A stretch of DNA of 35,076 bases from a virus. Location: positions 1-35,076 of IMG/VR virus record IMGVR_UViG_3300009151_000020; one strand, 5' to 3'. The translations under genes were made by a program, and so were the position numbers. This document shows, one piece after another, positions 14,904 to 35,076 of the stretch (the stretch's first letter is position 1; every line of letters starts with the position of its first letter). The notes under the pieces are model-generated. The model saw only the letters and a list, made by a program, of their open reading frames with translations, was not told the DNA's origin and searched no databases.

Positions 14904-17357
14904 TTAGAATCTTCCGGTAAAAGACCGCAATCCTATTATTGACTCACCTGCGGTAAGAGTCAAGGTTCCCGTGTATATACCGCCGGGACCATACACAACG
15001 CCTTGCAGTACCACTGACGGATCGGGGTACAAAGACGCGCTGCTTGCGGTGCCTACAATAATAGCCCCAAGTCCAACTAAAACGCCACTACTTGCGTGCG
15101 TTGCAAGTCTACTCGCTGCGCCAACTATAATAGCCCCTGGCCCAAACAATACGCCAGATGCGTTAGTTATGTGAGGTACTGACGCAGCACCTGTAACAAC
15201 CGCCCCCGGACCAGTTAAAGCGCCTGAAGTGGGGTGCAAATTAAACCGGAGCGCAGCACCCGTAACAACCGCCCCCGGACCAGTTAAATCGCCTGAAGTG
15301 GGGTGTACCGTAAACTTTAGCGCAGCGCCGGTAACTACCGCGCCAGGCCCGGTTAGTGCGCCGTCACTGGTTTTACCCGCAGCGCCAGGCGTATAGGAAA
15401 TAACGATAAGACCCTGTGCACCCGCGCCGCCAGTAGCGGCTACCAACAATGTACTGCCCCCTGCACCCGACCCGCCAGCCCCGTAAACTACGCTTGCAAT
15501 TCCAGCTACTGCACCACCGGATGACCCACCAGCCCCACCGCCGCCACCAATAGTATTAAATATATCCTGGCCTACACCACCTGCTTTTCCTCCTGTATTT
15601 CCTGACCCGCCGCCGCCGCCACCACCAAAAGTACCAACAGTAGCCGCAGCGCCGCCGCCAGTGCCGGCTGAGTTATTACCACCTGTGCCACCGGTTGCGG
15701 ATGTAGCGTTGCCACCTACTGAACCACCGCCATTACCACCACCGCCACCACCGGCTGTAGTTGCATTTGTTGAAGCAGAAAATCCAACGCCACCAGCACC
15801 ACCAGCACCATTCGGCCCCGCCGCGCCGCCACCACCACCACCAGTAGTGGCAAACCCAGAAGTTGTAGTTATTGAACCTGCGCCACCAACACCACCGGAT
15901 TGTGTGCCTGTTCCGCCCGCGCCTCCAACTGATGTTGGTGTTGTTGTGGTTGTACCTCCAGAGCCACCAATTGCTGTGTTAGTTGTTGCCCACGATGTTG
16001 TTCCACCCGTTCCACCCGCGCCGCTAGTAGCGCCAGCAGTACCACCCAGCCCAATTGCAATCGCTATAGAAGAACTTGCAGTTGTAGAGTAGTTTGTTAC
16101 AGCCCGGTAGCCACCGCCACCACCGCCAGCACCGCCAGCTTTGTTTGTTGCGCTAGTGGGCCTTGAACCGCCACCACCGCCACCGCCAGCGATCATGTAA
16201 ATCGTATTACTAGACGAACTCCAGTCGCTTGGGACCGTCCAAGTTGTCGTTGCTGTATTGGTTATCTGGTAAACCTTAATTGCACCAACACCACCCGATT
16301 GAAACAACCCCCCCGTGTTATTGCCAGAGTTTGTAGAGTTTGACCCAAGATACCAAACATACGGCGTTGTTCCGTCTGTTGCGACCGCTGGCGTAAACGC
16401 AATATCTGTAACGGAAAGATAGTCTGTACTTACAGTACCACCACCTGTAAGGGTAATTGTTCTTTGCGTTCCCCCGCTGGTGCTGTTTAATGTAAGTAAT
16501 TTACCAGTAGTTCCGCCAGCAGAAAAAGCAGCAACTGTTTGAGTTGCAGCAAACCGAATTGTCGTTGCACCAGTAACCGAATAAGTATTAGTTATGTCGC
16601 TAAAAGTATTTGCGCCGGTTATTGATAACGCGCCCGCGCCGCCTTGATTGATAGCGCAGTTAAATATAGACCCGCCGCCAACAAATGTTTTTACAGTTGC
16701 GCTAGTTAAACTAATCGAACCAGTGCCCGTACCAGCAGTTGTGGTAAAACCAGTTGGTACGGCGTTGTTAAAGGTAGTTGTTGAAGCTGCGACAATAACT
16801 ATAGAACCGCCATTAAAGGTTAAGTTCTTGGTGCCAGTTGCCGTTAAAAATGTTGTTGTTGAGCTTGTGCTTGATAGCGTTAATGTTTGCCCGTTAAGAT
16901 CAAGTGTTCCATTGGCAAGTGTTACTGTCCCTGCTACATTCTGCGAAGTAGTTAAGTTAGTTTGTAAAGTCCAATAGCCACCAACACCACTAAATAGTAT
17001 TGGGCCTAACAGCGTTACACCGTTTGTGGTTATTGTTCTGCCAGTAGAAGTAGACTTAAAGCTAATAGTTCCAGTGCCAGTAACAAATGTCGTTCCCGCA
17101 ATTAACGACATTGACCCGCTAATTTCTAAAGTTGCAGCGTGGTTAAACGCAACCGTTCCAGCAGAAACGGTTATATCAAGACAAGTTATTGTTGTTGCGG
17201 TAGTCGTCGTTACAGTGTACGTTCCGGCTTGGTCAAAAAATACCGAATCCGCTGCTGTAGGCGCAGTTGCGCCGCTGCTACCGCCAGACGATGCTGACCA
17301 ATGGGTAGTTGTCGTGTTCCAAGTTCCTGCCCCGCCTACCCAGTAACGATTCGCCAC
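14904..17357 (-). CDS. Large repetitive glycine-rich adhesin/fibre-like protein (817 aa)
   Basis: The N-terminus, MANRYWVGGAGTWNTTTTHW, is common in phage surface proteins. Residues about 50-330 are Thr-rich and beta-strand-like, in a solenoid style. Residues about 385-640 form a glycine-rich domain with many GGGGG runs. The C-terminal part (about 650-815) carries six imperfect 23-residue repeats around GPGAVVTGAA and GPGAIIVGAA. There is no signal peptide. Such composition is typical of fibre tips and adhesins that contact the host or other surfaces. It lies between portal-proximal and scaffold genes, away from the tail module, which is unusual. Function is inferred. Confidence 0.8.
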   Translation of the reverse strand: MANRYWVGGAGTWNTTTTHWSASSGGSSGATAPTAADSVFFDQAGTYTVTTTTATTITCLDITVSAGTVAFNHAATLEISGSMSLIAGTTFVTGTGTISFKSTSTGRTITTNGVTLLGPILFSGVGGYWTLQTNLTTSQNVAGTVTLANGTLDLNGQTLTLSSTSSTTTFLTATGTKNLTFNGGSIVIVAASTTTFNNAVPTGFTTTAGTGTGSISLTSATVKTFVGGGSIFNCAINQGGAGALSITGANTFSDITNTYSVTGATTIRFAATQTVAAFSAGGTTGKLLTLNSTSGGTQRTITLTGGGTVSTDYLSVTDIAFTPAVATDGTTPYVWYLGSNSTNSGNNTGGLFQSGGVGAIKVYQITNTATTTWTVPSDWSSSSNTIYMIAGGGGGGGSRPTSATNKAGGAGGGGGGYRAVTNYSTTASSSIAIAIGLGGTAGATSGAGGTGGTTSWATTNTAIGGSGGTTTTTPTSVGGAGGTGTQSGGVGGAGSITTTSGFATTGGGGGGAAGPNGAGGAGGVGFSASTNATTAGGGGGGNGGGSVGGNATSATGGTGGNNSAGTGGGAAATVGTFGGGGGGGSGNTGGKAGGVGQDIFNTIGGGGGAGGSSGGAVAGIASVVYGAGGSGAGGSTLLVAATGGAGAQGLIVISYTPGAAGKTSDGALTGPGAVVTGAALKFTVHPTSGDLTGPGAVVTGAALRFNLHPTSGALTGPGAVVTGAASVPHITNASGVLFGPGAIIVGAASRLATHASSGVLVGLGAIIVGTASSASLYPDPSVVLQGVVYGPGGIYTGTLTLTAGESIIGLRSFTGRF
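15183..15305. repeat. Tandem 69-bp repeat inside the glycine-rich gene
   Basis: Two nearly identical copies lie at 15183-15236 and 15252-15305 (54 matched bases, period 69 bp, or 23 codons). More diverged copies lie on both sides (about 15050-15375). The close DNA-level identity of this pair suggests a recent duplication or gene conversion within the array. Confidence 0.8.
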
Positions 17358-23176: not shown

Positions 23177-23579
23177 GGTCGGCGTCCTGATTGTTAATTT
23201 GAATCATAATGCCGCCGCCATCTTTGCCGGTAAGTTCCTGCCTAACTGTCTCTGACCAGCGCATCTGTGATTTCGTCCACCAGATCATTGCAGTCGTATC
23301 TCCGCCCATTGCTTTTTGAAATAGCGTCTTGCCTACCTGCCCGTTAGCCTTTGCCTTGCCTGATACCAGCTCAGTAACGAAGTGAGCGCGGAGTGTGTCG
23401 ATGTGGATTCCATCACGCACTAATGCGCCTATCTGGTCGATGGGCAGGCCATAACCTGAAAGCGCTTCTACCTGTTTACGCTCGGAATCAGTGGGTACAA
23501 AGGCTGGGCGGCCTGACCCTTCACGAGCACCGCCATTGCCGCCAATCTTTTTATAAGTAGGTTTATCAGTTTTAGCCAT
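23169..23579 (-). CDS. terS: Terminase small subunit (136 aa)
   Basis: The basic N-terminus (GGNGGAREGSGRPAF) precedes an HTH-like region (SERKQVEALSGYGLPIDQIGALVRDGIHIDTLRAHF). The helical core (GKAKANGQVGKTLFQKAMGGDTTAMIWWTKSQMRWSE) is typical of phage small terminases. It should bind the packaging start site and recruit the large subunit. It overlaps both the Mom-like gene upstream and terL downstream by 8 bases, so all three are probably translated together. Confidence 0.9.
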   Translation of the reverse strand: MAKTDKPTYKKIGGNGGAREGSGRPAFVPTDSERKQVEALSGYGLPIDQIGALVRDGIHIDTLRAHFVTELVSGKAKANGQVGKTLFQKAMGGDTTAMIWWTKSQMRWSETVRQELTGKDGGGIMIQINNQDADLV

Positions 23580-24264
23580 GTGTAACCTGCGCGAAAGGTT
23601 GATTCTCTGCGTGTAATGGAGCGGGTGGGTCGGTGTCGCGCCGCCGCTGTTCTGGCTGGTCGCCAGTCATCGCCTGCTTCACCCGCTTTGGATATGGTTT
23701 TGCTAATGGTGCAATCTTAGCACTCATCATCTTGTCAAGTGGCATTAGGTATCTGTGCTTTCCAGTTACAACCTTTTTAGGCAAGTTGCTTTGGTTTACA
23801 CCAGCATCATCAACTGTCTTTTTGTGTGACCACTTCCCTTTGTAAAAGACTTTTAGTGCCTTGCAACTTGGCCCAGTGTAAAGCCAGTTGCAGGCTTGGT
23901 AAATCCCACCATGATGGCCTTGATCTGGGTCAGCATAAGAAACTATCAAACGCAAACCTTTTTGTGACTTCACCAAAAACCTTACTGCCAATGCCATTAT
24001 TTTACTAACTGGCACTTCATGCTTTGTCAGAGCAATCCTTGTTAACTCACAACCATCCTCTTGCTGTAAGCCAAAAGGTTTAAGCATATTGTTATTAGCA
24101 CCTCTGCTAAAGATGACAACCCCAATAAACTTATTATCTTCCCATGCTGCTACTTTGACCAGTTTACCAACAGGCAGACATTTGCTGTAATGCCAATTTA
24201 AACAAGCATACTTAGCAGCCTCATGGCTTGCCCAGTCAATTTTAAGCTCAGGCTTGTCTTGCAT
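23572..24264 (-). CDS. Mom-like DNA adenine modification protein (230 aa)
   Basis: The start at ATG 24264 is chosen; an extension to 24294 needs a TTG and lacks support. Residues about 8-130 look like the Mom family, which has an acetyltransferase-like fold and makes N6-(carbamoylmethyl)adenine in phage Mu. Landmarks are NWHYSKCLPVGK (23-34), FIGVVIFSRGANNNM (46-60), ELTRIAL with Arg77, and SYADPDQGHHGGIYQACNW with Asp112 and Tyr122. The last 60 residues are a basic, proline-rich tail. It lies between a ParB-like gene and the terminase genes, so DNA may be modified just before packaging. Family assignment is from memory of the conserved blocks. Confidence 0.78.
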   Translation of the reverse strand: MQDKPELKIDWASHEAAKYACLNWHYSKCLPVGKLVKVAAWEDNKFIGVVIFSRGANNNMLKPFGLQQEDGCELTRIALTKHEVPVSKIMALAVRFLVKSQKGLRLIVSYADPDQGHHGGIYQACNWLYTGPSCKALKVFYKGKWSHKKTVDDAGVNQSNLPKKVVTGKHRYLMPLDKMMSAKIAPLAKPYPKRVKQAMTGDQPEQRRRDTDPPAPLHAENQPFAQVTHG

Positions 24265-24751
24265 CGAACTCTTTCCCGCAATGAGGACAAGCAATCCACT
24301 TCGGTTCGAGTTCGTCCAACTTTCCTTGATCGTCCTCTGTTCCTGGTTGGAAGTCTGGCGTATTCAATGCTGCAATCTCATCGGCTGTAAACCCAGTCAT
24401 ATCCAGGTCGAAGCTCATGTCCTTCAGGTCTGTCAACTCAACCGCCAGCATTTCATCGTCCCACCCAGCATTGAGTGCCAGCTTGTTATCAGCAATAACA
24501 TAGGCTTTTTTCTGTGCCTCTGTCAAATGCGTGAGCCTGATGCTTGGTAGGTCAGCTAGTCCTAGCTTTCTCGCTGCCATCACTCTGCCATGCCCTGCGA
24601 TGATGCTTCCAGTCTCGTCGATCAGCACCGGATTCGTGAAGCCGAACTCTTTGATGCTTGCTGCAATCTGCGCTACCTGACCGTCTGAATGCGTGCGGCT
24701 GTTCCGAGCATACGGAATAAGCGCCTCTATTTTCACCTGTTCAATTTTCAT
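24248..24751 (-). CDS. ParB/Srx-fold protein with C-terminal zinc-ribbon-like end (167 aa)
   Basis: Residues 5-70 form a ParB N-terminal domain (IPYARNSRTHSDGQVAQIAASIKEFGFTNPVLID, then GHGRVMAARKLGL). The GHGR box is at 53-56. Residues about 75-110 (LTEAQKKAYVIADNKLALNAGWD) are the usual extension in phage ParB-like proteins. The end, CPHCGKEF, gives one CxxC pair. Phage ParB-like proteins often neighbour DNA methyltransferases; here the partner is Mom-like. There is no ParA or centromere array, so partitioning is unlikely. AGGAAAT precedes the ATG. It is the first gene of the late block and may regulate or modify DNA. Confidence 0.85.
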   Translation of the reverse strand: MKIEQVKIEALIPYARNSRTHSDGQVAQIAASIKEFGFTNPVLIDETGSIIAGHGRVMAARKLGLADLPSIRLTHLTEAQKKAYVIADNKLALNAGWDDEMLAVELTDLKDMSFDLDMTGFTADEIAALNTPDFQPGTEDDQGKLDELEPKWIACPHCGKEFDARQA

Positions 24752-28844: not shown

Positions 28845-29621
28845 TTATATTTCATTGCCCATTAAAATTTTCCATGCTGTTGCGGCACACAAAGGCACTT
28901 GTCCATTCCCAATGGCTTTAAGTCTGTCCACCCTAGAGGCCACCCCATTAGCCACTCGACCCACGTTGGGTTCAGATGACCACCAACCTGCGCCGCCAAC
29001 GTCGGCGTGTGCAAATTGCTTTCGCTTGGCGCGTTTGTTTCCTTGGCATTGTGTGCTGTTGGAGTGGGCCATATCGGTTTTGCATATCGTTTCTGCATTG
29101 ACGGTGCTAATTGATTCGCTGTGGCTGTTACTGTGGGCCACAATCCAGATTCGCGCTCTAAGATGGGGCGCACCAACGTCTGCTGCTGATACGACACCCC
29201 ATCTTGCATCAAACCCCAGCGCGGCCAAATCTCCAAGCACTGTTCCAAGTCCGCAAGAAGTGAGCATTGGACTGTTTTCCACGAATGCGTATCGTGGTCG
29301 TACTTCCCCAATAATCCTTGCCATTTCAGACCAGAGTCCTGATCGACTGCCGGAGATTCCTGCACCGTGTCCTGCGGCACTGATGTCTTGACAGGGAAAC
29401 CCTCCAGATACAACTTCAACAATTCCTCGCCACGGCTTGCCGTCAAAGGTGCGAACGTCATCCCAAATCGGGAAAGGCGGGAGAATTCCGTCATTTTGTC
29501 GGGCACACAATACGCTTGCTGGGTACGGTTCCCATTCAACGGCGCAGACGGTTCGCCATCCGAGAAGTTTTCCGCCGAGAATTCCTCCACCAGCGCCTGC
29601 GAAAAGAGCCAGCTCATTCAT
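28845..29621 (-). CDS. C5-cytosine DNA methyltransferase (258 aa)
   Basis: The enzyme should transfer a methyl group from S-adenosylmethionine to cytosine C5. Motif I is FAGAGGG (7-13), motif IV is GGFPCQDIS with catalytic Cys77, motif VI is ENSP (115-118), motif VIII is RARIWIVA (155-162), and motif X is AIGNGQVP near the end. The region between motifs VIII and X, which holds the target recognition domain, is short, and total length is below the usual 300-plus. Its ATG overlaps the Cro-like stop. A second ORF of 251 residues lies entirely inside it in another frame. It could protect phage DNA from restriction. Confidence 0.9.
   Translation of the reverse strand: MNELALFAGAGGGILGGKLLGWRTVCAVEWEPYPASVLCARQNDGILPPFPIWDDVRTFDGKPWRGIVEVVSGGFPCQDISAAGHGAGISGSRSGLWSEMARIIGEVRPRYAFVENSPMLTSCGLGTVLGDLAALGFDARWGVVSAADVGAPHLRARIWIVAHSNSHSESISTVNAETICKTDMAHSNSTQCQGNKRAKRKQFAHADVGGAGWWSSEPNVGRVANGVASRVDRLKAIGNGQVPLCAATAWKILMGNEI
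28862..29617 (-). CDS. Nested alternative-frame protein within the methyltransferase gene (251 aa)
   Basis: The ATG lies four bases after the methyltransferase start (ATGAATGAG). The frame stays open for 251 codons, ending 17 bases before its host gene. The product begins MSWLFSQALVEEFSAENFSDG and contains APLTASRGEELLKLYLEGFP, SLLADLEQCLEIWPRWGLMQDG, WPTPTA, and GGHLNPTWVEWLMGWPLGWT near the end. From memory these blocks match a frequent phage protein of unknown function. AGGGA lies 6 bases before this ATG, a better spacing than for the methyltransferase ATG. No catalytic motif is seen. Either both proteins are made or this frame is constrained by its partner. Confidence 0.6.
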   Translation of the reverse strand: MSWLFSQALVEEFSAENFSDGEPSAPLNGNRTQQAYCVPDKMTEFSRLSRFGMTFAPLTASRGEELLKLYLEGFPVKTSVPQDTVQESPAVDQDSGLKWQGLLGKYDHDTHSWKTVQCSLLADLEQCLEIWPRWGLMQDGVSYQQQTLVRPILERESGLWPTVTATANQLAPSMQKRYAKPIWPTPTAHNAKETNAPSESNLHTPTLAAQVGGHLNPTWVEWLMGWPLGWTDLKPLGMDKCLCVPQQHGKF

Positions 29622-29806
29622 TGTCCCTTCCGCTTGTACTTAGATGCATCCACCATCAGCAAGCCAGCAGTAAGAACCTGGAGCTTGTAGGCCATGCCTT
29701 CAGCTACGTACTCGCCCCACTGCTCGACTGCCTGCCGAGTGATTCCGAGAGCCTCTGCAAGCTGCCTGCGCCCACCGAAAAAATTCACTGCCTTAATCGT
29801 TTTCAT
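29618..29806 (-). CDS. Cro-like repressor (62 aa)
   Basis: The small HTH protein reads VNFFGGRRQLAEALGITRQAVEQWGEYVAEGMAYKLQVLTAGLL, close in layout to lambdoid Cro/CI-type proteins. Helix 2-turn-helix 3 is about residues 14-32. Only a short C-terminal tail follows, so it has Cro rather than CI size and no cleavage domain. It is the first gene of the minus early operon, with a candidate promoter at 29832-29860. The TGCAA-N6-TTGCA palindrome at 29856-29871 is the likely operator. No divergent CI-like partner is present. Confidence 0.85.
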   Translation of the reverse strand: MKTIKAVNFFGGRRQLAEALGITRQAVEQWGEYVAEGMAYKLQVLTAGLLMVDASKYKRKGQ

Positions 29807-29831
29807 AGGTCAACCCTCGTTGTAAAAATGC

Positions 29832-29860
29832 AATATATATTATTTTTGTTATTTGTGCAA
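29832..29860 (-). promoter_or_regulatory. Candidate early minus-strand promoter
   Basis: The minus strand reads TTGCAC (29860-29855), a 17-base spacer and TATATT (29837-29832). This promoter would start transcription near 29825 and drive the Cro-like operon. The operator overlaps its -35 box. Confidence 0.6.
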
Positions 29861-29871
29861 TTTGCGTTGCA
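29856..29871. promoter_or_regulatory. Operator 1: TGCAA-N6-TTGCA
   Basis: The palindrome TGCAATTTGCGTTGCA overlaps the -35 boxes of both divergent early promoters. A protein bound here would block both. A further TGCAA half-site lies at 29829-29833, next to the minus-strand -10. The element recurs at 31943-31958 with the same centre length. The Cro-like protein is the obvious binder, by inference. Confidence 0.65.
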
Positions 29872-29895
29872 AAGAAAGATTAATTGCTTTATTAT
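29867..29895 (+). promoter_or_regulatory. Candidate early plus-strand promoter
   Basis: TTGCAA (29867-29872), a 17-base spacer and TATTAT (29890-29895) form a good sigma-70 promoter. It lies 31 bases before the ATG at 29927. Its -35 box shares five bases with operator 1. Confidence 0.65.
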
Positions 29896-29926
29896 CTCTA
29901 AATCGACAACGAACTAGGGGAAAAAG

Positions 29927-30235
29927 ATGAGCGCTTTATCAAATTGGGAAACCCTGCAAGAAATGGGTTATTCGGAGCACTTTGATTGCCTGGAGGCTGA
30001 GCAAATGAAATTTGATACCGAAGTTGAGCATGTCATAACCGATATCGAACTCGGTCGCCCTATGACCGCGAAGGAAGTCTGCGGCTACATCGATGGCGAG
30101 AAAATGGACATGGTGATGCAGGTCATTGCTCGCCACATCTACGAGCAGCATCCGAAGGACGACACGCAGCCGGAGAAGTTATTGCGTGCTTTGCTCGACA
30201 ACGCTGTGCGTGCTTTTGTAAAGGAACAAGCATGA
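29927..30235 (+). CDS. Early phage protein of unknown function (102 aa)
   Basis: It is the first gene of the plus early operon, with a GGGGAAAAAG element before the ATG. The protein is helical and acidic (NWETLQEMGYSEHFDCLEAEQMKFDTEVEHVITDIELG, then GRPMTAKEVCGYIDGEK). The C-terminal half (HIYEQHPKDDTQPEKLLRALLDNAVRAFVKEQA) is also helical. No domain is recognised. First genes of such operons often encode antiterminators, host take-over or anti-defence proteins, but nothing in the sequence picks one of these. It overlaps the next gene by four bases. Confidence 0.75.
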   Translation: MSALSNWETLQEMGYSEHFDCLEAEQMKFDTEVEHVITDIELGRPMTAKEVCGYIDGEKMDMVMQVIARHIYEQHPKDDTQPEKLLRALLDNAVRAFVKEQA

Positions 30236-30465
30236 AACCGGTACAGCAGTACCGTACAACAGGCACCACGATCGCCAATGCGGTTCGCATTGCAGTGTAT
30301 GCGGTCGGTGCAGCAGCTTTTGCCTACGTCGTGTTGCTTGCGATTGTTGGATGCAGCAAAACGCAAGTAGCAAGCCAGGAAGTCGCACAAGAATTTGCCT
30401 TTTCCGAAGCCTGGGCAAGCGAACAAGCAAGACTCAATGAACGAAAACTAACGAGGCAAAAATGA
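30232..30465 (+). CDS. Single-span membrane protein or lipoprotein (77 aa)
   Basis: Residues about 18-40 are hydrophobic (VRIAVYAVGAAAFAYVVLLAIVG) and end at Cys41 in IVGC, a lipobox-like match. A charged tail follows (SEAWASEQARLNERKLTRQK). If cleaved at Cys41 it would be a lipoprotein; otherwise it is a single-pass protein with a cytoplasmic N-terminus. It is encoded between an early unknown gene and ERF with four-base overlaps. Early phage membrane proteins often act in superinfection exclusion. That role is only a suggestion here. Confidence 0.65.
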   Translation: MKPVQQYRTTGTTIANAVRIAVYAVGAAAFAYVVLLAIVGCSKTQVASQEVAQEFAFSEAWASEQARLNERKLTRQK

Positions 30466-31043
30466 ATAAATCAGACAGCATTTCAGGCCTAGCAGCAGCT
30501 CTGGCAATCGCCCAGGGGCAGATGAAAGGCGCAATAAAGGATAGCGCTAACCCGTTCTTCAAATCAAAGTATGCGGATTTAGCTAGCGTGGTCGAGGCGA
30601 TTAGAGTCGCATTTTCCTCAAACGGATTGAGTTACATTCAAACCGTCGAACCATCCGACAAAGATGAAGTGCGCGTAGAAACTACGCTGCTGCACAGCAG
30701 CGGCGAGTGGATTGCATGCGGTGTCTTGTCTCTGCCGGTCAGCAAAGCCGATGCCCAGGGTTACGGCTCTGCGCTTACCTATGCCCGTAGGTATAGTTTG
30801 TCAGCCGCGGTCGGTGTGGCACCAGAGGATGACGACGGTAACGCAGCCAGCGCAGCCAAGCCAACAATGGATTTCACCCCGCACATTGAAAAGATCAACG
30901 CTTCGATGACGATGGACGAATTGCAAGAGTCATTCAAAGTTGCATACAAGATCGCACAGGCAAGCGGAACAGCCGCAGCAATGGCGATGCTGACGACCGC
31001 AAAGAACGCTCGCAAAGAAACGCTCAAGGATGTGCCCCTGTGA
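30462..31043 (+). CDS. erf: ERF-family single-strand annealing protein (193 aa)
   Basis: The ERF signature is clear: NPFFKSKYADLASVVEAIRVAFSSNGLSYIQ (30-60) and ADAQGYGSALTYARRYSLSAAVGVAPEDDDGNA (97-128). ERF of P22 circularises or recombines ends by annealing single strands. Length is close to P22 Erf (204). The C-terminal 50 residues (MTMDELQESFKVAYKIAQAS) are helical. It overlaps the exonuclease gene by four bases, so a two-part recombination system is encoded. It acts on phage DNA in the cytoplasm. Confidence 0.93.
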   Translation: MNKSDSISGLAAALAIAQGQMKGAIKDSANPFFKSKYADLASVVEAIRVAFSSNGLSYIQTVEPSDKDEVRVETTLLHSSGEWIACGVLSLPVSKADAQGYGSALTYARRYSLSAAVGVAPEDDDGNAASAAKPTMDFTPHIEKINASMTMDELQESFKVAYKIAQASGTAAAMAMLTTAKNARKETLKDVPL

Positions 31044-31642
31044 TTGCCCAGGGAACCCCTGAGTGGCTTGCAGAACGTGCTGGCAAGGTAACCGCCAGCA
31101 TGATTTCTGCGGTACTTATGAAGCCAGAAACGGCTGGCTATCGAGACTATCAGGCGCAGCTTGTTGCCGAGCTGCTAACCGGCAAGCCGCAAGGCTCGGA
31201 TTACAGCAATGCAAACATGGTTTACGGAACTGAAACCGAACCTCTTGCACGATCAGCATACGAGGTCCACACGGACTTCGTGGTTGATGAAGTAGGGTTA
31301 TGTCAGCATCCAGTTATAACGCGCTCTGGTGCCTCTCCTGACGGTCTGGTGGGCATCGATGGCCTGGTGGAAATTAAGTGCCCGAAGGTCAGCACGCACA
31401 TTGACTATTTGCTTGCAGGCGTAGTCCCGTCAAAATACAAAAACCAGATGATGTGGCAGATGGCTTGCACTAACCGCGAGTGGTGCGACTTTGTAAGTTA
31501 TCGCCCCGATCTACCCGCAAATTTGCAATTGTTCATCGTTCGTTTTCAACGCGACCCAGCGCGTATTCTGGAACTAGAAGCCGCAGTTGTCGCCTTTTTG
31601 GACGCTGTGGATGTGATTTTACTTAAACTCAAAAAGGTATAA
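31040..31642 (+). CDS. YqaJ-type viral exonuclease (200 aa, GTG start)
   Basis: The start is a GTG that overlaps the ERF stop (GTGA). The lambda-exonuclease-like fold shows GTPEWLAERAGKVTAS at the N-terminus, then SGASPDGLVGIDGLVEIKCPK with Asp101, Glu111 and Lys113 as the PD-(D/E)xK core. SKYKNQMMWQMACT follows as a substrate helix. This enzyme should resect linear double-stranded DNA 5' to 3' for ERF-mediated annealing. The gene pair ERF plus YqaJ mirrors lambda Beta plus Exo. It is close to the usual length for this family. Confidence 0.9.
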   Translation: MIAQGTPEWLAERAGKVTASMISAVLMKPETAGYRDYQAQLVAELLTGKPQGSDYSNANMVYGTETEPLARSAYEVHTDFVVDEVGLCQHPVITRSGASPDGLVGIDGLVEIKCPKVSTHIDYLLAGVVPSKYKNQMMWQMACTNREWCDFVSYRPDLPANLQLFIVRFQRDPARILELEAAVVAFLDAVDVILLKLKKV

Positions 31643-31644
31643 AA

Positions 31645-31923
31645 ATGCACATTATTATCACCTGGCACGACAAACAATTTAACCTTGATATTGCTGCATC
31701 AGAGCAGCGCGAAGCGTTCCTATCGATCAAAGGATGCCGCCTTGTTGAAGGCAGCAAAGGTCCGTTTGTATCTTTCCCATCGCGCAAGAATGAAGCGACA
31801 GGAAAATACTGGAACCATGTCTGGGCTAACGCATCTTTCCAAGACGATATTGTGCGGCTTGCCAAGGCTTCGCAGCCAGCGATTAATGAAACTGCACCGA
31901 TAGACGACGACATTCCTTTCTAA
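31645..31923 (+). CDS. Single-strand-binding-like protein with DDDIPF tip (92 aa)
   Basis: The body (EAFLSIKGCRLVEGSKGPFVSFPSRKNEATGKYWNHVWANASFQDDI) resembles SpoVG-type or phage ssDNA-binding-like small beta proteins. The final residues, PIDDDIPF, repeat the tip of bacterial SSB (DDDIPF), which docks RecO, RecG, PriA and other SSB partners. It follows ERF and the exonuclease in the operon. I infer that it coats single-stranded phage DNA or competes for SSB partners. Full OB-fold SSB proteins are longer, so this is a different scaffold with the same tail. Confidence 0.78.
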   Translation: MHIIITWHDKQFNLDIAASEQREAFLSIKGCRLVEGSKGPFVSFPSRKNEATGKYWNHVWANASFQDDIVRLAKASQPAINETAPIDDDIPF

Positions 31924-31930
31924 TTTTATA

Positions 31931-31970
31931 TGCTGCGAATGATGCAAGAATTGTTGCAATGTTCGCAGCA
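31931..31970 (+). repeat. Large nested inverted repeat behind the SSB-like gene
   Basis: Nine-base arms TGCTGCGAA and TTCGCAGCA enclose three-base internal bulges, then TGCAA-N6-TTGCA. Forty bases in all form a near-perfect dyad 7 bases past the stop at 31923. It may end or pause the upstream transcript, but it also holds an operator. Confidence 0.75.
31943..31958. promoter_or_regulatory. Operator 2: TGCAA-N6-TTGCA
   Basis: The arms and the six-base centre (GAATTG) have the same spacing as operator 1. The right arm overlaps a TTGCAA -35 box, as it does there. The same regulator, probably the Cro-like protein, would bind both sites. Confidence 0.6.
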
Positions 31971-31982
31971 CTTGTATATAGT
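31954..31982 (+). promoter_or_regulatory. Candidate second early promoter
   Basis: TTGCAA (31954-31959), 17 bases and TATAGT (31977-31982) give a sigma-70 promoter 29 bases before the ATG at 32012. The -35 sequence and spacer match the promoter at 29867-29895 exactly. Confidence 0.6.
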
Positions 31983-32011
31983 TTATTCACTTACAACAAC
32001 TGGTGGAATAA

Positions 32012-32098
32012 ATGATTAAAATATTTTCAGCGATGGCGCTTGTAGGAATTGCGGCGCTGTTCTTTGTTGCGCTGATTGCTGCACTTTTCTTTAGCTGA
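32012..32098 (+). CDS. Tiny membrane peptide (28 aa)
   Basis: GGTGG lies 6 bases before the ATG. The peptide (MIKIFSAMALVGIAALFFVAL, then IAALFFS) is one membrane span from end to end. It is the first gene downstream of the candidate second early promoter. Such short phage membrane peptides can act on host membrane proteins or as toxins or antiholins. No homology is claimed. It is supported by ribosome site, position and a clean stop. Confidence 0.6.
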   Translation: MIKIFSAMALVGIAALFFVALIAALFFS

Positions 32099-32105
32099 GG
32101 GAATT

Positions 32106-32246
32106 ATGAGTCTGACAACAAGAGCACGACAGTTGCACAAGAACCGCCTAAACGCAGCCAAGTGGGTTCTGGCAGTGCGTTACCTGCGGAGCCGAAACTT
32201 ATGGATTCTTGAGAACGGGCGCAGGCCCGGTTGGGGCAACAAATGA
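32106..32246 (+). CDS. Small basic protein (46 aa)
   Basis: GAGGGAATT precedes the ATG. The product (TTRARQLHKNRLNAAKWVLAVRYLRSRNLWILENGRR and a Gly/Trp/Lys tail) is strongly basic. It overlaps the next gene by four bases (ATGA), which supports it. The shape suggests a DNA- or RNA-binding helix pair. No family is recognised. Confidence 0.7.
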   Translation: MSLTTRARQLHKNRLNAAKWVLAVRYLRSRNLWILENGRRPGWGNK

Positions 32247-32419
32247 GCAATAACCTGAATGCTGCGTGTGATGATGCTTGGAATGCGTGGGGTGTTGCAC
32301 ATGCTGCGTTTATTGCTGCGAAAGCTGCGTGTGATGTTGCAAGGGCTGCGAGAACTGCTGCATTGGCTGCTGCGAAGATTACGGATGCTGCGTTGGCTGC
32401 TGTGATGGAGAAATCATGA
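32243..32419 (+). CDS. Alanine-rich coil protein (58 aa)
   Basis: The start at 32243 gives MSNNLNAACDDAWNAWGVA; a longer in-frame start at 32231 would overlap the previous gene further. Alanine makes up a large share of the residues, mostly in the units AAFIAAKAAC, AARAA and AALAAA. The DNA repeats short GCTGCG-type units. The predicted structure is one long helix. Alanine-rich short coils of this kind recur in phage accessory regions, but their role is unknown. It overlaps both neighbours by four bases. Confidence 0.65.
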   Translation: MSNNLNAACDDAWNAWGVAHAAFIAAKAACDVARAARTAALAAAKITDAALAAVMEKS

Positions 32420-33541: not shown

Positions 33542-33865
33542 ATGCCCTACGCACCTATCACTCAGCCGCTGCGCTCTGTCACCGTCATCGAGGGCCAAGT
33601 CAAAACCGTAGCGCAGTTAGCTGACATGGCAAAACGCGCAACCGCGCAGCGCCAGAGCATGTCCACCCAAAAAGCCACGAGCCGGGCGCTGATCAAAGAG
33701 TGCCATGCACTTGCAGCGCTGAAGTTAAATCAAAATCAAATATCGCAGCAACTCGGAATTAGTTACGAGTCCGTTCGCTATTATCTGAAAAGAAAGGTCT
33801 TGTCCCCATCCGATCGATTATTAATGCTGACCGACGTGGAGCTAAGGACGGTGAGTCAGGTATAG
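33542..33865 (+). CDS. Helix-turn-helix regulator (107 aa)
   Basis: The N-terminal half is polar (KTVAQLADMAKRATAQRQSM). The C-terminal half (LAALKLNQNQISQQLGISYESVRYYLKRK) is a classic HTH, with recognition helix ISYESVRYYLKRK. No ligand domain is seen. It has its own promoter at the end of the early operon and is a candidate activator of the late promoter, by analogy with late regulators in similar positions. Its last 107 bases overlap the endolysin gene on the other strand. Confidence 0.72.
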   Translation: MPYAPITQPLRSVTVIEGQVKTVAQLADMAKRATAQRQSMSTQKATSRALIKECHALAALKLNQNQISQQLGISYESVRYYLKRKVLSPSDRLLMLTDVELRTVSQV

Positions 33866-34903: not shown

Positions 34904-35076
34904 TTGTCAGCCTTCGCATCAAGTTTGTCGTATATACCTTGAAGCATTGTTTTGATCTCAGCTATGTCACGGATAAAGTCATCTCGTCGCACGTACTTGT
35001 TATGGAGGTCTTTAGCCTCCTCGTCCAACCGGTCCAGCGTAGTCATGATGCGGTTCAGTACCCAGCCGCCAAAGCA
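34900..35076 (-). CDS. Small membrane protein of the lysis region, C-terminal part (continues at 1-168)
   Basis: This is the 3' part of the split gene described at 1-168, ending in KLDAKADK and a TGA that overlaps the ATG of the secreted protein. The bases 34954-35076 repeat positions 1-123, so this copy lacks only the first residues, which lie at 124-168. No new function is implied. Confidence 0.85.
   Translation of the reverse strand, partial: CFGGWVLNRIMTTLDRLDEEAKDLHNKYVRRDDFIRDIAEIKTMLQGIYDKLDAKADK
34954..35076. repeat. Terminal direct repeat, right copy (contig closure)
   Basis: This copy is identical to 1-123. Removing one copy and joining the ends gives a 34,953-bp circle with one intact gene through the junction. 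Confidence 0.95.

Follow-up and report, generated by a model that had tools for sequence, protein, structure and literature searches.

Predicted Cro operators at divergent early promoters and at an inserted cassette in a P22-like phage genome with no detectable CI

Two exact copies of the dyad TGCAA-N6-TTGCA, at 29856-29871 (site 1) and 31943-31958 (site 2), are probably operators through which the P22-type Cro encoded by the phage achieves a one-way turn-down of early transcription without CI. The window analysed was the whole of IMG/VR record IMGVR_UViG_3300009151_000020 (35,076 bp). Both dyads had been placed at these positions by the initial annotation and were confirmed, and the genome-wide count that it had suggested returned exactly these two. 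Dinucleotide shuffles contained a mean of 0.18 dyads and reached 2 once in 100, so that the count alone is modestly significant.

Genome layout, the Cro protein and lysogeny genes

An exact 123-bp direct repeat at both ends of the record (1-123 and 34954-35076) fits a complete circular assembly. The portal, scaffold, major head protein, head closure and DNA ejection genes mark a virion of the P22/short-tail type, and a leftward block holds the replication, methyltransferase, Mom-like and packaging genes. The cro-like gene (29618-29806, minus strand) encodes 62 aa with the recognition helix ITRQAVEQW and is followed on its 3' side, with an overlap and in one operon, by a C5-cytosine methyltransferase gene (28845-29621, minus strand; PF00145, E=2.7e-30). 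The recombination operon (29927-31923, plus strand) was assigned from profile matches and consists of ORFs that abut or overlap: two small ORFs at its start, then the Erf annealing protein (30462-31043, plus strand), the YqaJ exonuclease (31040-31642, plus strand) and, as the last gene, an SSB-like ORF (31645-31923, plus strand). The SSB label was given from position and an acidic C-terminal tail, Pfam returning a sub-threshold SpoVG match only.

Three other observations were made on the gene content. A Mom-like DNA modification protein (23572-24294, minus strand) and the C5-cytosine methyltransferase coexist in one small phage, and both likely have an anti-restriction role. An 817-aa protein inside the structural block (14904-17357, minus strand) matched nothing in PHROG (E<=1e-4) or in Pfam (E<=0.1). 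Behind the rightward operon lies a 107-aa helix-turn-helix protein (33542-33865, plus strand) with weak matches, a possible second regulator.

The 62-aa protein matched PF14549 (P22_Cro) with E=1.1e-16 and 60.8 bits against a cut-off of 30.2, over residues 3-59, and its PDB match was P22 Cro (1rzs, E=1e-9). It was classed as a P22-type Cro, the P22_Cro domain covering its full length of about 60 aa and the predicted operators adjoining its own gene appearing to fit its recognition helix. Assignment as a YdaS-type regulator or toxin was rejected, as YdaS_toxin scored 31.3 bits over residues 5-30 only and P22_Cro was far better; no YdaT partner was present among the genes neighbouring cro. A scan of genome contigs for cro loci gave two distant loci only (Halomonas and a Rhodoferax MAG), and no annotated phage had a DNA-level match to the site-1 region.

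HTH_3 (PF01381), S24 peptidase (PF00717) and tyrosine integrase (PF00589) domains were absent from the 35-kb record, in agreement with the earlier statement that no CI-like partner is present. None of 15 related records, which include several of 33-37 kb and some that may be fragments, had an S24 or integrase (PF00589) domain. The arrangement of a lambdoid lysis/lysogeny switch, a CI-type repressor (HTH_3 + S24) divergent from cro together with a PF00589 integrase, is thus not seen. E. coli phage 720R4, which has a Cro match, was set aside; its annotated CI adjoins cro in a temperate-type layout. The literature searched, with partial coverage, described no CI-less, Cro-only P22-like phage.

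Site 1 and its covariation with the Cro recognition helix

The right arms of both dyads open TTGCAA (29867-29872 and 31954-31959), followed after 17 bases by TATTAT (29890-29895) or TATAGT (31977-31982) and further downstream by ATGs at 29927 and 32012, just as had been described. At site 1 these elements form the rightward early promoter TTGCAA-N17-TATTAT (29867-29895, plus strand), which was called by the promoter scan. The likely leftward cro promoter TTGCAC-N17-TATATT (29832-29860, minus strand; -10 at 29837-29832) was read from the sequence, the scan calling a version with a 16-bp spacer. The left arm of site 1, which had been said to cover the divergent cro -35, does overlap TTGCAC (29860-29855, minus strand).

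Site 1 therefore overlaps both divergent -35 boxes, and it is designated here as the predicted operator O2 (TGCAA-TTTGCG-TTGCA); in relatives its arms are conserved and its N6 is variable. A weaker predicted operator, O3 (AGAAAGATTAATTGCT, 29873-29888), lies 17 bp to the right of O2 and fills the spacer between the -35 and -10 of the rightward promoter. One arm of O3 is damaged in the window (GAAA), and the O2-O3 offset of 17 bp (18 in some) recurs in relatives. O1 (TGCAA-TATATA-TTATT, 29829-29844), over the cro -10, is a weak candidate picked by eye; its counterpart in relatives, TGCAATATACC-TTGT, was likewise seen by eye across the whole group. Neither O3 nor O1 had been noted in the initial annotation.

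All positions of the 35-kb record were scored with a matrix made from relatives only. Site 2 (31943) was the best position, followed by site 1 (29856) and O3 (29873). Shuffles reached maxima (mean 14.6) close to the absolute scores of site 1 and O3, so that score alone is not decisive and rank and location count in combination. A larger regulon was rejected: GCAA-N6-TTGC at 538, 1249 and 14337 lies in a coding-dense minus-strand region and ranked below the three promoter sites. Nine further GCAA-N6-TTGC matches in relatives were attributed to chance because they are within long open frames and have no good -10 at the matching distance.

At 109 unique cro loci the recognition helix was compared with the dyads lying no more than 170 bp upstream of cro. 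GCAA-N6-TTGC was present at 15 of 18 loci with the helix [ST]RQAVE.W, the other 3 having N7, and at none of the remaining 91. With the helix SRQAVYAW the dyad was GTCAA-N6-TTGAC (13/13 loci), exactly one such site occurring per record; its core TCAA-N6-TTGA was present at the same 13/13 loci, at 0/18 [ST]RQAVE.W loci and at 1/78 elsewhere. Shuffled sequences in this test gave a mean of 0.25 and a maximum of 2. The loci are partly related, many being of one clade with about four separate N6 lineages (the window group, L095/L161, L100 and L109), and the counts therefore make the loci look more independent than they are. Separate cases of N6 with an otherwise divergent Cro are L095/L161, L100 and L109.

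Two side observations concern these loci. L107, L108, L110 and L112 encode longer Cro-like proteins with the helix TRQAVEQW and have GCAA-N7-TTGC upstream, one base wider than with the short Cro; N6 or N7 spacing may follow the Cro dimer interface. At L095/L161 the cro leader appears to be very short or absent, a GTG standing just after the predicted -10, which recalls the leaderless cI of lambda.

Both arms of site 1 coincide with -35 hexamers (TTGCAC and TTGCAA), as they would if the dyad were merely two divergent -35 boxes and no operator, and in L084/L087 O2 has lost its left arm, which has drifted to the good -35-like TTTACA. This explanation is nevertheless improbable. As a -35, TTGCAA is poor, and it persists only at loci whose Cro has the matching helix; the dyad occurs again at site 2, where the left arm has no evident minus-strand promoter. 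The O3 half-site also switches, from TTGC where the helix is AVE to TTGA where it is AVY; since O3 lies outside any -35 box, the dyad signal is not a promoter artefact. Control of both promoters by a regulator of the host that recognises TGCAA-N6-TTGCA, in place of Cro, would account for one motif common to two sites and is very improbable, because the motif shifts with the recognition helix of Cro between phages that have most flanking genes in common, and adjoins cro in every case. The earlier reading of site 1 as a Cro operator is strongly supported by the helix/operator covariation, the 17-bp tandem operators and the conserved arms around a variable N6, and the adjoining P22-type Cro very probably uses site 1 as an operator.

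Site 2, its insert and its hairpin

Site 2 (TGCAA-GAATTG-TTGCA) overlaps the predicted promoter TTGCAA-N17-TATAGT (31954-31982, plus strand), which was called by the scan and has 9 of 12 consensus bases. The lack of an O3 at site 2 counts against the Cro reading. Site and promoter are contained in 183 bp (31924-32106, plus strand) that run from the ssb stop to the next ATG and are absent from relatives. In L084, L118 and L119 ssb is joined directly to a homologue of the gene at 32107, which in the window is a 46-aa ORF (MSLTTRARQ..., 32107-32247, plus strand) and which lies directly 3' of ssb in L084 and L118. Other ssb-bearing relatives likewise have ssb running straight into a gene, and 31924-32106 was for this reason taken as an insert. 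When the insert was searched by blastn against the phage collection, the only matches were at the ssb end or were short and spurious.

The insert carries a 28-aa hydrophobic ORF (MIKIFSAMALVGIAALFFVALIAALFFS, 32012-32098, plus strand) with a plausible ribosome site and no Pfam match, the product of which is probably a single-pass membrane protein. No terminator was called by the scan within the insert after 32098, and the hairpin at the left end has no U-tract. Placed as it is between genes that are adjacent in relatives, the insert has the look of a moron that Cro would control.

The dyad of site 2 is the centre of a near-perfect 40-bp dyad, TGCTGCGAA-N3-TGCAA-N6-TTGCA-N3-TTCGCAGCA (31931-31970), which overlaps the predicted operator and the -35 of the insert promoter. 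It is predicted to form a strong RNA hairpin on both strands (-22.4 kcal/mol, z=-3.7 for the plus strand and z=-4.8 for the minus strand), and site 1 has no comparable fold. Site 2 with its 40-bp dyad recurs only in L106, a contig 99.9% identical to the window. The 40-bp dyad and the insert under site 2 had also been missed earlier.

The hairpin could act as something besides an operator. The main rival explanation for site 2 is that it primarily serves the recombination operon as a terminator or RNA-processing hairpin, standing before an independent promoter, and that the operator match is incidental. The stability and z-scores of the fold, a terminator-like site called at 31952-31970 and the possession by the insert of its own predicted promoter, as in morons, all argue in this direction. 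Against this, the stem is not followed by a proper U-tract (CUUGUAUAUAG), and its inner arms are an exact Cro operator with the right N6 gap, the same type of -35 overlap as at site 1 and the best match in the genome. The hairpin explanation is accordingly considered unlikely, and the Cro-operator reading of site 2 is well supported by its first place with the relatives-only matrix. The initial annotation had joined both sites in a small regulon. Its two predicted operators stand; normally the regulon does not reach beyond the cro intergenic region, site 2 being an addition peculiar to this lineage.

Proposed circuit and comparison with known systems

From the sites, promoters, covariation, insert and lack of detectable lysogeny genes, the following course of Cro binding, repression and timing may be proposed. 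On entry, the early promoters would fire left and right from their shared region. Cro dimers would then occupy O2, over both -35 boxes, and O3, in the spacer of the rightward promoter, and accumulating Cro would shut both the leftward operon (cro, cytosine methyltransferase and replication genes) and the rightward recombination operon (Erf, YqaJ exonuclease and SSB). Site 2 would give the later-acquired cassette, a promoter and the 28-aa putative membrane protein, the same early-on, late-off timing, and the genes behind the cassette would probably come under site-2 control too. With no CI, the circuit is read as a one-way turn-down of early transcription and not as a lysis/lysogeny switch. Lambdoid Cro control would here take a new form, a variant without CI.

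A wider reading, put forward tentatively and at slightly less than even chances, is that Cro-only early timing is the rule throughout a clade of P22-like phages that appear to be obligately lytic, with repeated co-change of Cro specificity and tandem operators, cassettes joining the regulon through a Cro operator, and the site-2 hairpin as a second control layer.

Cro is known chiefly as half of a bistable switch. The retention of Cro, tandem operators and a matched helix with no detectable CI or integrase suggests that early-gene turn-down is useful in itself in lytic growth. In AVE/TTGC and AVY/TTGA nature offers a pair on which the Cro recognition code can readily be tested, and the site-2 insert is a candidate for a newly arrived gene wired into the phage's own regulon.

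As in P22 and lambda with their Cro and OR/OL, a Cro (here of the P22_Cro family) is found with tandem operators (here predicted ones) in the form of small dyads on divergent early promoters, with Erf recombination genes on one arm, O-like replication genes on the other and P22-like head genes. Unlike P22 and lambda, the window phage has no detectable CI, integrase or S24 protein, and its early promoters stand back to back on one operator cluster, the cI region between them being missing. Its half-site TTGCA, the 17-bp operator spacing and the further operator on an inserted cassette also differ. The insert resembles phage morons in being short, in lying between genes adjacent in relatives and in having its own predicted promoter and a small ORF; unlike them, its promoter bears the phage's own predicted Cro operator and its right end has no clear terminator. 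TgrL of Caulobacter phage phiCbK is a phage-encoded XRE-type regulator with high expression at the earliest stage that represses host genes (PMC10688885); it and the window Cro are both phage-encoded regulators, and they differ in protein family and operator. The half-sites of lambdoid Cro proteins have been proposed to follow the recognition helix (Hall et al. 2005, J Mol Biol 350:667, as reported in PMC4488713). The present sequences appear to widen that rule to P22-type Cro proteins from uncultivated phages, a new branch in which the change from AVE to AVY goes with the change from TTGC to TTGA.
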